Shown: positions 15,858 through 19,407 of the stretch, one piece after another
How positions within the stretch are numbered: position 1 is the first letter of the stretch
How the letters are laid out: each line of letters begins with the position of its first letter
Assembly: GCA_002401455.1 (NCBI GenBank)
Contig: NVTE01000006.1
Span: 59,910 to 123,909 of the forward strand
DNA from: Alphaproteobacteria bacterium
GTDB lineage: Bacteria > Pseudomonadota > Alphaproteobacteria > Sphingomonadales > Emcibacteraceae
Direction: 5' to 3'
DNA length: 64,000 nucleotides
Notes under the pieces: model-generated
Databases searched by the model: none
What the model was told of the DNA's origin: nothing
The model's input: the letters and a program-made list of their open reading frames with translations, nothing else
Position numbers and translations under genes: made by a program

Positions 15858-17519
15858 ATGGTTTCATACCTAGTACAGAAAGGATCAAAGCTCGCCGCGC
15901 GTCTCGCTCGGGACGAAGAAGGTGCCATCCTCATCAAAACAATATTCATGCTGGTCCCCCTTATCGCTATACTGGGAATCGGTGTCGATATGTCCCGGGC
16001 CTACCTGTATCGCTCTCAATTGTCAGGGGCTCTTGATGCGGCGGCACTTGCTGGTGGCAAAGCTTTTCACTCTTCTACCAGAGACGATGAAATTACGGCG
16101 TTTTTTGAAAATAATTTTTCCTCTGACTACATGGGAGGCACTCTAGACTCATTTGTAATTACTGAAACAGATGCCGTACAGAAGACCCTGACCGTGACAG
16201 CGTCTGGCTCAATTCCTGCAACATTCATGGCGCTTTTTGGTTATGGCTCTATTCCCATAAACGTTGCCGCAGAAACCACCAGCAAGACCACAGGGTTGCA
16301 GCTGGTGATGGTGCTTGATTCCACTGGCTCCATGAGAAGCTCTGCTGGCAACTCGTCCCGGATGACAGCGCTGAAAGAAGCCTCAACAACACTGGTGAAT
16401 TCCCTGTTTGGCAATGACCCAAGTTCTGAGCAATTATCCATCGCCATAGTGCCCTATGTCACGACGGTTAATGTGGGGCATTTGCTTGATAGCAGCTATA
16501 TGGATATGAGCACGGTCCCGGCAAGTTATACCTATGATGCCAATGATCTTAACAAATGGGCTGGCTGTGTGGAGGCAAGAACAACTAATGCCAGTCTCAA
16601 TGCCAATGCCTATGATGTTCAGGTCGAGCATCAGGGACAGGACTGGGTGCCATTTCTGTGGCGGCCCCATTATGATAATCATTTTTACAGCCTGCCCGGC
16701 ATTAAGGGGCCGAGTGGTGAAAATTGGCCAGCACCTAATTATCAACTCAAGGGTGGAAATGGTGAGGGGTCCAGTGATGCCGGGCCAAATATCAATTGCC
16801 CGGCCCCCGTGCTGGATTTCACCAATGACAAGGCGGAACTGACAAATTATATTGATGGCCTGTATTATTCCTATAATCGGGGAGGCACGATTGCTAACCT
16901 GGGGATGATCTGGGGCTGGCGCATGTTGCATACGGGTTCGCCGTTTTTTAACCCGGTGCCCTATAATGATGATCAGATGCTGAAGGCTGCGATTCTGATG
17001 ACTGACGGCCAAAACTGGATTATTGGATCCAGAGGAAAACATCCTAATTATGATGGGCAGAATTCCTCCCGGGATAATCGGGACACCTATGATGATGATG
17101 GCGATGGTCAGTGCTCCCGGGGCTGTCGTCGAAGCCGGTGGGACAGGGACGATGAAAATAACGGTCCCCGGGCCTTTGATGCCCGCAACGGCAATGGGAT
17201 TGGTCGCTATTATGTCGGCGATTATTCCGGTTATGGCCGCCGGGACCTGGGTCGTATGGGGGGGGCGAAGACCAAATCTGCTTCGACCAGGGCGATCGAT
17301 AAACGCCTAGCTCATGTCTGTGCCGCCATGCGGGGGGCGGGCATTACCATTTATACCATTACCTTTGGCAGCGGGGCGACCAACCCCAGCCTGCAAAACC
17401 TGTACCGGGGCTGCGCTACGGACAGGGGTAAATATTTTCATGCCCCATCCTCCTCTGAGCTTGAAGGCGCGTTTGAGGCCATCGCCAATGACCTGTCCAA
17501 TCTGCGGCTCAGCAGATAA
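15858..17519 (+). CDS. TadG-like pseudopilin with von Willebrand factor A domain
   Basis: A 553-residue protein. The ATG at 15858 is chosen because GGAGGA lies 5-10 bases upstream; an in-frame TTG at 15846 overlaps that site. The N-terminus (DEEGAILIKTIFMLVPLIAI, then GVDMSRAYLYRSQLSGALDAAALAG) is the TadE/TadG (Flp pilus-assembly) helix. A VWA domain starts at LVMVLDSTGSM, a MIDAS-type metal site with Thr at the middle position. The domain carries long insertions, one an Asp/Gly/Arg-rich segment with DDDGDGQCS and several Cys, before the final strand TIYTITFGSG. It is probably exported and surface-associated. Confidence 0.85.
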   Translation: MVSYLVQKGSKLAARLARDEEGAILIKTIFMLVPLIAILGIGVDMSRAYLYRSQLSGALDAAALAGGKAFHSSTRDDEITAFFENNFSSDYMGGTLDSFVITETDAVQKTLTVTASGSIPATFMALFGYGSIPINVAAETTSKTTGLQLVMVLDSTGSMRSSAGNSSRMTALKEASTTLVNSLFGNDPSSEQLSIAIVPYVTTVNVGHLLDSSYMDMSTVPASYTYDANDLNKWAGCVEARTTNASLNANAYDVQVEHQGQDWVPFLWRPHYDNHFYSLPGIKGPSGENWPAPNYQLKGGNGEGSSDAGPNINCPAPVLDFTNDKAELTNYIDGLYYSYNRGGTIANLGMIWGWRMLHTGSPFFNPVPYNDDQMLKAAILMTDGQNWIIGSRGKHPNYDGQNSSRDNRDTYDDDGDGQCSRGCRRSRWDRDDENNGPRAFDARNGNGIGRYYVGDYSGYGRRDLGRMGGAKTKSASTRAIDKRLAHVCAAMRGAGITIYTITFGSGATNPSLQNLYRGCATDRGKYFHAPSSSELEGAFEAIANDLSNLRLSR

Positions 17520-17554: not shown

Positions 17555-17583
17555 TTCACAGGGCAAATAAAATTGTCTATAAG
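17555..17583 (+). promoter_or_regulatory. sigma70-type promoter for the leuA leader
   Basis: TTCACA (17555-17560), a 17-base spacer and TATAAG (17578-17583); each box matches the consensus at 5 of 6 positions. Transcription would begin near 17590, 27 bases before the leader-peptide ATG. No experimental support. Confidence 0.6.
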
Positions 17584-17616
17584 GGCGGGTAATTGAAACA
17601 TTATGCAAGATTAAGC

Positions 17617-17748
17617 ATGCGACAGATGACAATATCATCATTGACCTTTCCGAATACTGGCCAGATTTGTGCCGGGACTGTTCGGCTGTTCGCGGCGTCC
17701 CTCCTTCTATTATCCCTTCTTCTTCCAGGTCGACTTAGTCGCCCCTGA
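17617..17748 (+). CDS. leucine-rich leader peptide of leuA
   Basis: A 43-codon frame (ATG 17617, TGA 17746-17748). Codons 29-36 read CTC CTT CTA TTA TCC CTT CTT CTT: seven leucines in eight codons, with another Leu at codon 40. It lies between a good promoter and leuA, the first committed enzyme of leucine synthesis, and the stop codon overlaps one arm of an alternative RNA pairing. This is the arrangement expected for ribosome-mediated attenuation. The peptide could alternatively be a small hydrophobic protein, but position and codon content favour a leader. Its ribosome-binding site is weak. Confidence 0.75.
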   Translation: MRQMTISSLTFPNTGQICAGTVRLFAASLLLLSLLLPGRLSRP

Positions 17749-17815
17749 CGTCTTGATATTATGAGCCAGTTCGCTGGCGGACGGGCAGGGGAGAAAAACA
17801 AGATTTCACTCCCTG
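17742..17815 (+). promoter_or_regulatory. mutually exclusive RNA pairings of the leuA attenuator
   Basis: CAGGGG at 786-791 of this block (window 17786-17791) can pair perfectly with CCCCTG at 17742-17747, which overlaps the leader stop codon. The same stretch, extended as CAGGGGAG (17786-17793), can pair with CTCCCTG at 17809-17815 with one bulged G. A ribosome finishing the leader would cover the first partner and permit the second pairing; one stalled at the Leu codons would leave the first partner free. The downstream pairing has no U-tract, so the output mechanism is unclear. Confidence 0.5.
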
Positions 17816-17862
17816 ACCGGGAAATATGATATATTCACTTTACAAATTTTAAGGCTACGACA

Positions 17863-19407
17863 ATGACCACAGATAAAAACAGGGTTATAATTTTTGATAC
17901 CACATTGCGCGATGGGGAGCAGTCACCGGGCTGTTCCATGACCCTCGGCGAAAAGCTGCGGGTGGCGGAGGCCCTTGAAAACTTGGGTGTCGACGTGATT
18001 GAAGCCGGGTTCGCCATTGCTTCCAACGGTGATTTTGAGGCCGTGTCCCAGGTGGCGCAATTGCTGAAAGAGACCACAGTTTGTTCCCTGGCCCGGGCCT
18101 CCTTCAAGGATATTGATCGGGCGGCAGAGGCGCTGAAAAAGGCGATTCGCCCCCGGATTCATACCTTCATTTCTACCAGCCCTCTGCATATGGAGTATAA
18201 GCTGCAAATGACCCCCGATGAGGTGATCGGGCGCATTGCCGACAGTGTCAGCTATGCCCGTAACCTGTGTGATGATGTGGAATGGTCCTGTGAGGATGGC
18301 ACCCGGACCGAAGAGGATTTCCTCTATCGCTCCATTGAGGTCGCGATCAAGGCCGGAGCCACGACCATCAATGTGCCGGACACCGTGGGTTATACCACCC
18401 CGGATGAATATCGGATCATCATGCAGAAGATCATCGAGAATGTACCTAATTCTGACAAGGCGATCTTCTCGACCCATTGTCATAATGACTTGGGGCTGGC
18501 GGTGGCCAATTCCATCGCGGCGGTCCAGGGCGGGGCGCGACAGATTGAATGCACCATCAATGGCATTGGTGAGCGGGCCGGTAATGCGGCGCTGGAAGAA
18601 ATTATCATGGCCTTCCGGACCCGGGCGGATGTCCTGCCCTACCACACCAACATAATTACCCAGAACATCCTCAAAACCTCTAAGCTGGTGTCGTCCGTCA
18701 CTGGTCTTAATGTCCAGCATAACAAAGCGATTGTCGGGGCCAATGCCTTTGCCCATGAAAGTGGGATTCATCAGGACGGCATGCTGAAAAATGCCGAAAC
18801 CTATGAAATCATGACCCCTGAGTCCATCGGCCTGAAGCAATCCGAACTGGTGATGGGCAAGCATTCCGGTCGTCATGCCTTCCGGGAAAAGCTGAAAGAC
18901 ATGGGCTATGAACTGGGTGATAATGAATTTATGTCCGCCTTCACCCGATTCAAGGACCTGGCCGATGTGAAAAAGACCATCTATGACGACGATATTATTG
19001 CCATTGTTGACGAAAATATGCGCGATAATGACCATATGAAGCTGACCAGCTGGTCGTTCATCTGTGACAGTTGGCAGGAAAGCAGTGCCACTTTCGGCCT
19101 GGAAGTGGACGGCGAGAATATGACCGTCTCCAGCAAGGGCAACGGTCCGGTCGATGCCTCCTTCAAGGCCTTGCGTGAGTTATCCGGCGGCGAACCGAAT
19201 CTGGAGTTGTATCAGGTTCATGCGGTCACCCGCGGAACCGATGCCCAGGCAGAGGTCACGGTGCGGCTTGAAGAAGAGGGCAAGACGGTTAATGGCCATG
19301 GGGCTCATGTAGATACCCTGGTGGCGTCTGTTAAGGCCTATATCAATGCGCTCAATAAACTGCAGGTCAAGCGGGAAAAAACCGCCCCTGAGGCCATGAG
19401 CGATTAA
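17863..19407 (+). CDS. leuA: 2-isopropylmalate synthase
   Basis: Condenses acetyl-CoA with 2-oxoisovalerate in the first committed step of leucine synthesis. The 514-residue protein has the DRE-TIM barrel signature [13 protein letters not shown] near residue 10, [12 protein letters not shown] and [14 protein letters not shown] in the barrel, and [13 protein letters not shown] leading into the linker. A C-terminal LeuA allosteric domain, the site of leucine feedback, is complete. An upstream Leu-rich leader suggests control by leucyl-tRNA. A strong hairpin follows the gene. Confidence 0.97.

Follow-up and report, generated by a model that had tools for sequence, protein, structure and literature searches.

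A leucine-codon leader upstream of leuA in Alphaproteobacteria and its probable role in translational attenuation

Introduction

The closest described system to the leader studied here is the LEU element, located upstream of leuA in Actinobacteria (Seliverstov et al. 2005, PMC1262725). As far as the available text of that article goes, the two have in common a leader ORF with a run of Leu codons, placed before leuA and devoid of a terminator, and they appear to share, to judge from our class as a whole, a base stem in which leader codons pair with the Shine-Dalgarno region of leuA and an inner fold is enclosed. They differ in this inner fold: the LEU element has there either a pseudoknot or an alternative hairpin, and the present leader a hairpin holding the leader stop codon and a CUUAnnnGCCCCUGA core (hairpin B). 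Mutations of the S. coelicolor leader were reported, in the same text, not to fit classical attenuation.

The E. coli leu leader is described in PMC6123439, the available part of which also refers to leader peptides and terminators that had been proposed for species across the Gram-negative bacteria. With the classical leu and trp attenuators our leader shares a leader peptide rich in Leu codons, a stop codon within a switchable hairpin and ribosome stalling as the presumed sensor; it differs from them in that the window analysed here, a stretch of 64,000 nucleotides, has neither a U-tract terminator nor an Rfam match at the leader. No alphaproteobacterial leuA leader was described in the titles and abstracts searched. 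PMC1273637, in its available part, credits Vitreschak et al. 2004 with an alphaproteobacterial ilvB leader. Neither the S. meliloti survey nor the Caulobacter one (PMC10117765, PMC4117421) has the word 'leuA' in its main text, and 'isopropylmalate' and 'leucine' are absent from the available text of a 26-genome RNA survey (PMC8632094).

Gram-negative amino-acid leaders are usually read as terminator switches, and terminator-based searches would miss leuA leaders that control translation. In translational attenuation of the ermC/cat type, a ribosome stalled on the leader opens a helix over the downstream ribosome binding site (RBS). By analogy, a stalled ribosome would open the RBS helix of the present leader; the signal would be uncharged tRNA-Leu and not a drug, and the genes and folds are others. 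We report here on a leader that, in our judgement, rather probably acts as a leucine-responsive translational attenuator of leuA.

Materials and Methods

LeuA was detected in 28 of 32 genomes of the family (E≤1e-100) and in 192 of 386 genomes of the class (E≤1e-150). Upstream regions were taken from 80 named loci, which are the best named LeuA matches, and 100 further regions were added, the class set consisting of the better-scoring LeuA matches and covering 129 of the 192 genomes; this sample is not random, and some genomes are present twice. The 238 regions were reduced to 232 by dropping duplicates or fragments (L001, L014, L027, L028 and L029) and one region at a contig edge (L013).

The core finder scores the pairing of an arm that contains the stop codon together with the Leu codons, with a threshold of at least 10. 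Among the 159 regions reaching it, 153 met the conditions on spacing, length and absence of N, and the redundancy filter left 116 of these; in the first swap test the two numbers were 154 and 122. For the Leu count in 93 non-redundant leaders, the stop was picked by arm pairing alone, without the Leu term of the finder. Alignment A2 holds the 103 leaders whose hairpin B loop is at most 36 nt, and the genus alignment A1 comes from 13 of the 15 genus genomes having LeuA, the other two being without leader and at contig ends. The model of the leader core, R1, was built from leaders that include many of the genomes later searched. Outside the class, 40 upstream regions were drawn from 114 non-alphaproteobacterial genomes with a match, 3 of the 40 being shorter than requested.

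Results and Discussion

The leuA leader of the window

The window belongs to a partial genome (69% complete) of an Emcibacter-like alphaproteobacterium, and its LeuA has its closest named match in Emcibacter sp. NORP208 (86% identity). The leuA product was identified by PRK00915.1-4 (1.2e-252) and also by TIGR00973 leuA_bact, both over the cut-off. The features described below are collected in Table 1.

Table 1. Features of the leuA leader region, in window coordinates
Feature	Position	Strand	Basis
Candidate promoter, TTCACA-N17-TATAAG	17555..17583	+	sequence
43-codon leader ORF, ending ...LLLLSLLLPGRLSRP-stop	17617..17748	+	open frame; homologous Leu-rich leaders before leuA
Leu codon run, proposed stall site, 7 of 8 codons Leu	17701..17724	+	sequence; in-frame Leu counts
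Helix A 5' strand, GGUCG 17728-17732 and UUAGUC 17735-17740, within leader codons	17728..17740	+	RNAalifold; class swap tests
Hairpin B, arms CCCCUG 17742-17747 (overlapping UGA 17746-17748) and CAGGGG 17786-17791, inner stem, UUCG apex 17765-17778	17742..17791	+	folding; covariation
Alternative helix 3:4 of the earlier reader, CAGGGG/CTCCCTG	17785..17816	+	folds of window from 17590-17660
Small hairpin C, UCCC-UGACC-GGGA	17810..17822	+	-5.2 kcal/mol; 82.7% of cells paired over the 13 leaders of the genus
Helix A 3' strand = leuA RBS and start: UAAGG 17850-17854, GGCUA 17853-17857, UGACC 17864-17868	17850..17868	+	RNAalifold
leuA, 2-isopropylmalate synthase, 514 aa	17863..19407	+	PRK00915.1-4 and TIGR00973 leuA_bact

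An earlier note on this DNA had described TTCACA-N17-TATAAG, a 43-codon leader peptide, a Leu run and a stop codon lying within a helix arm, and each of these could be read again in the sequence. The two hexamers (TTCACA at 17555-17560 and TATAAG at 17578-17583) are separated by 17 nt, the frame is open from ATG 17617 to TGA 17746-17748, seven of eight codons are Leu (CTC CTT CTA TTA TCC CTT CTT CTT), and CCCCTG, which overlaps the leader stop, pairs with CAGGGG. A further Leu codon, CTT 17734-17736, occupies position −4 from the stop, and the leader ends RP-UGA. An in-frame TTG (17593), just behind the candidate −10, would be an alternative start giving a nearly leaderless ORF of 51 codons, and the ATG start is thus putative.

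TTCACA was found upstream of 12 of the 13 genus leaders. The candidate promoter is missing from our promoter scan because in that scan the sixth base of the second hexamer has to be T; its sole match lies inside leuA (17863-17891; 0.7 expected from shuffles). An internal promoter in the tail near 17825-17835 was also considered and rejected, the scan listing none there.

Leucine leaders precede leuA in relatives

Looking at the upstream regions sampled from Alphaproteobacteria, we found the leader element before leuA in 159 of 232 (score of at least 10, compared with 4 of 694 dinucleotide shuffles). Many of them share one layout, with a Leu-rich leader, the CUUAnnnGCCCCUGA core in which the stop codon lies and, after a short loop, UCAGGGG. 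The remaining 73 regions include Pelagibacteraceae without the element and variants in which the stop lies outside the arm. In seven leaders (L088, L100, L069 from Pelagibacteraceae, L094 from Caulobacter sp., L115, L121 and L150) a hairpin is kept at this place and the stop stands outside its usual arm position; the stop-in-arm arrangement is therefore common and not universal.

The earlier note had held that homologous leaders lacking the Leu run would speak against attenuation, and the opposite came out. Between codons −13 and −2 the 93 leaders carry on average 4.44 Leu codons in frame, compared with 0.47 and 1.61 in the other two frames, and codon −4 is Leu in 89 of the 93. Rfam 15, a search that the same note had called for, gave no family at E≤1 at the leader, either in the window or in 14 related loci; the Rfam family name for the classical leu leaders is presumably Leu_leader.

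Hairpin B covaries around the leader stop codon

Hairpin B has a predicted energy of −23.0 kcal/mol in the window. Over the 103 leaders of A2, 98.4% of its cells are paired and five of its eight pairs are changed on both sides (39 cells), all measures being above those of 500 shuffles (0/500) and of slid structures. The compensatory changes that a covariance check was expected to reveal were thus present for the stop-codon helix; indeed, pairing is kept with compensation when the stop becomes TAA or TAG (L047, L061). The UUCG hairpin, first taken as an extra element, turned out to be the apex of hairpin B itself, with a loop that is not conserved in the genus.

Few leaders contain a terminator

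No terminator-like site was found between 17480 and 17900 (0, with 0.4 in shuffles), in agreement with the missing U-tract that had already been remarked upon after the second helix. Among the 159 leaders, a strict scan (at least 6 T of 8) retained 2, with 0.8 expected, and a lax one (at least 5 T) retained 12, with 4.4 expected. With none in the window and few elsewhere, an intrinsic terminator is poorly supported as the output; given the excess in the lax scan, a few leaders may have one.

Such scarcity would also suit a Rho-dependent transcription attenuation, in which the naked leader would admit Rho after ribosome release, and a stalled ribosome or hairpin B would block it. The long untranslated tail after the leader fits this scheme, as does codon −1, which is Pro in 86 of the 93 leaders: a leader end Pro-UGA could slow ribosome release, as in TnaC, the leader of the tna operon, which the RP-UGA end of the window resembles. 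The present tail, however, differs from the TnaC case in being no richer in C than leuA is over its first 60 nt (C 0.291/G 0.238 in the tail, C 0.296/G 0.225 in leuA). Moreover, codon −1 is Leu in 4 of the 93 leaders, and the CCUC arms of L195 and L210 still pair; pairing within hairpin B can therefore account for the CCC codon, and a TnaC-like Pro-stop as a universal rule is weakened accordingly. Since Rho would also leave the excess of pairing between leader and RBS, described below, unexplained, we hold this mechanism to be unlikely.

Predicted pairing of leader codons with the leuA RBS and start codon

When RNAalifold was run unprompted on the 13 genus leaders, it placed a base stem, helix A, around hairpin B, in which the leuA start codon is covered by GGUCG:UGACC and the RBS by UUAGUC:GGCUAA. 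In the window, GGCUA (17853-17857) faces 17736-17740 and UGACC (17864-17868) faces 17728-17732, with one mismatch, U17735-C17858. In the genus, 95.1% of the helix A cells are paired, compared with 11-49% for slid structures; double changes occur in only 1 of the 29 pairs of the whole structure and in none within helix A.

In the class, native partners were compared with swapped ones. In 122 leaders, the summed leader:tail duplex energies (−2130.7) are well below those of swapped partners (−1734.3 ± 33.9; 0/2000), and the leader:RBS duplexes (−30 to +9) behave alike (−2115.6 compared with −1742.7 ± 34.4; 0/1000, z −10.9). Before GC matching, the controls gave z −1.5 (leader against leuA codons) and z −3.1 (an earlier part of the leader against the RBS). 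After GC matching, the leader:RBS difference is −2.83 kcal/mol (t −6.6; native lower in 85 of 116), with controls at +0.04 (t 0.15) and −0.45 (t −1.2), respectively. The native excess extends from about −36 to −3 relative to the leuA start, with ratios of 1.17-1.35, and is absent upstream of −48. Native and swapped scores both peak over the Shine-Dalgarno positions, which for the swapped ones reflects the high pyrimidine content of Leu codons. No more than 32 of 122 native leader:tail pairings and 25 of 116 leader:RBS pairings fall within the best 5% of swaps, meaning that helix A is weak in many leaders. Clear examples are L151, where CUUCGACUUAUUCGC pairs with GCGAAUAGUCGAAG, and L197, where CCCUUCGACUUAGGUG pairs with CACCUUGAGUC..GAAGGG, Shine-Dalgarno included.

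The earlier note had left the output in doubt between Rho, a translational effect and a helix not recognised. Helix A, supported by the swap tests, is such an unseen helix, and the doubt pointed in the right direction. As a base stem, to be compared with that of the LEU element, it is supported across the class; in the window it covers the RBS and the start codon, and its formation varies with the stretch chosen for folding.

We also modelled the cost of opening the RBS. Masking the helix A strand, as a stalled ribosome would do, lowers the mean cost from 9.20 to 6.64 kcal/mol, compared with 8.19 for a mask further upstream and 7.95 for a ribosome on the stop codon; the mean drop is 2.56 kcal/mol with the first mask (at least 2 in 59 of 115 leaders) and 1.01 with the mask further upstream (33 of 115). 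In the window, the cost is 4.55 free and 3.15 with the A 5' strand masked, compared with 3.27 for the control mask, that is, no extra help.

The sequences CUUA/CGACUUA and AGGGGA are conserved more than simple pairing would require. This would be expected if the fold made of A and B were a protein site or controlled mRNA decay, the leader peptide being secondary, a role proposed for the actinobacterial LEU element in the available text of PMC1262725. A protein site would nevertheless have no need of the strong in-frame Leu bias, and we regard this explanation as very improbable.

Helix 3:4 competes with hairpin B in folds of the window

The earlier note had described two helices competing for CAGGGG, hairpin B and helix 3:4, in the manner of trp/leu attenuation. 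Helix 3:4 (CAGGGG:CTCCCTG 17809-17815) is worth −9.2 kcal/mol alone, and forcing it into the 17701-17880 fold costs 1.6 kcal/mol (−38.6 compared with −40.2). The probabilities in that fold are 0.67 for G17729-C17867, about 0.13 for the inner A pairs, 0.74 for B and 0.16 for 3:4. Its weight depends on the start of the fold: from 17700 or 17725 it is minor (1.9-3.4 expected pairs), A and B being favoured, and from 17590, 17617 or 17660 it dominates (7.4-8.9, compared with 0-1.6 for A and 0.1-1.3 for B). The competition is therefore real for the window sequence, and the window's helix A rests more on its relatives than on its own static fold. Among 11 genus relatives folded over a similar length, 9 (all but L010 and L032) favour B (6.9-7.0 pairs) over 3:4 (0-1.5), with 3.4-12.9 pairs for A.

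Simulated ribosomes switch these helices as in classical attenuation. With the A-site at Leu 17716-17722, B rises to 4.7-5.8 expected pairs and 3:4 falls to 1.7-2.7, and with the ribosome on the stop codon B has 0 and 3:4 has 8.5 pairs. In the first position, A has only 0.2-1.1 pairs and the leuA AUG stays paired; with the fold restricted to RNA 3' of the ribosome, the AUG is free in RNA ending at 17880, and in longer RNA, ending at 17890 or 17900, it pairs with leuA codons. These simulations thus gave no clean RBS switch in the window.

From the classical scheme of the earlier note, the Leu leader stands, as do, in the folds of the window, the helix competition and the response of B and 3:4 to the simulated ribosome; a terminator output is poorly supported. 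The scheme could be completed, at least in this genus, if a terminator, weak or of an unusual kind, lay at 3:4 or at hairpin C. The dominance of 3:4 in the whole-leader folds of the window, its response to ribosomes and the excess in the lax terminator scan are in its favour, along with L006, where TTTTT comes after a GC-containing stem (1448). On the other side stand the terminator counts of the window and of the strict scan and the preference of most relatives for B. Helix 3:4 itself shows no native excess in the class swap test (z +1.35, with the native value being the lower one in 42 of the 115 leaders) and, with 88.3% of its cells paired in the 13 genus leaders, no covariation, so that the compensatory changes looked for in this second helix were not found. 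Helix 3:4 was rejected as a class-wide output, and we judge the terminator variant in the genus to be quite unlikely. Hairpin C showed no double changes in the 13-leader alignment. In the tail of L006, the segment ATTCCCCGCGGGGAATTTTT (1448-1467) looks like a terminator stem and was not counted by the scan of 159 leaders.

A proposed model for leucine-responsive control of leuA translation

In the translational attenuation that we favour, the default state would be one in which the last leader codons, the 5' strand of helix A, pair with the leuA RBS and start, keeping translation of leuA low; hairpin B would form inside helix A and join its two strands. When charged leucyl-tRNA is scarce, a ribosome would stall in the Leu run or at the near-invariant Leu codon −4, covering the A strand (and the 5' arm of B), and leuA would be translated from the open RBS. 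When leucine is plentiful, the ribosome would finish at the stop codon and depart, and A and B would close. The leader would then probably turn leucine synthesis on when leucine is short. In favour of this model, the Leu codons lie in frame and close to A and B. The leader, its Leu run, hairpin B, helix A across the class, the scarcity of terminators and the place before leuA are established by comparison; this direction of the switch, leucine as its signal and an effect on the level of LeuA are what we infer, and we would expect the window to behave like its relatives.

Distribution of the leader and its association with two LeuA types

Searching the window's own genome with R1 gave one significant site (E 1.5e-6), the second being at E 0.4. 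In the class, there were 71 matches in 67 of 191 genomes: 59 lie at most 200 nt upstream of LeuA and 1 at 418 nt, 2 precede LeuA fragments at contig ends and 2 precede leuA_yeast-type LeuA, a placement at leuA that is partly by construction since many of the searched genomes also supplied training leaders. Five matches lie elsewhere (G071, second matches in G035, G058 and G082, and one on the opposite strand in G159), and those in G164 and G218 (2 of the 71) have no assigned relation to LeuA. In the other classes of the phylum, none of the 40 leuA upstream regions matched R1 at E≤10; Leu-rich ORFs of another form are present among them, with 7 of 8 codons in L296 and 6 of 8 in L295 and L298.

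Of 60 genomes of the order, 13 have genes of the TIGR00970 leuA_yeast type, and these 13 belong to a single other family, possibly Sphingomonadaceae. The leader precedes the gene in all 13 (L348-L360); its core there is CGACUUA, with a hairpin of either CCCUUA/UAAGGG or CCCUUGGG. The regulator would then have been kept while the enzyme was replaced. The leader:RBS pairing is repeated before these enzymes as well (0/5000 swaps, 11 of 13 leaders).

A widespread set of leuA leaders apparently controls the start of translation instead of termination. This offers an explanation for attenuators without terminator, provides annotation with a covariance model and gives an example of a single leader serving two types of LeuA enzyme. 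That the leader is a widespread, undescribed leucine-sensing translational attenuator of Alphaproteobacteria, which outlived its own enzyme and converged on, or co-descended with, the actinobacterial LEU element, is a tentative proposal whose chances we put a little short of even.

Two minor observations concern the window. A weak Rfam match to snoRNA sR30 within the upstream coding region (16956-17020; 21.4 bits, with a gathering threshold of 38) is most likely due to chance. A GGGAAATATGATA-like motif, missing or altered in L006-L012, was seen by eye between hairpin C and the RBS (17820-17831) and again in the tails of L003-L005, L018, L019 and L021-L025, which belong to two genera.
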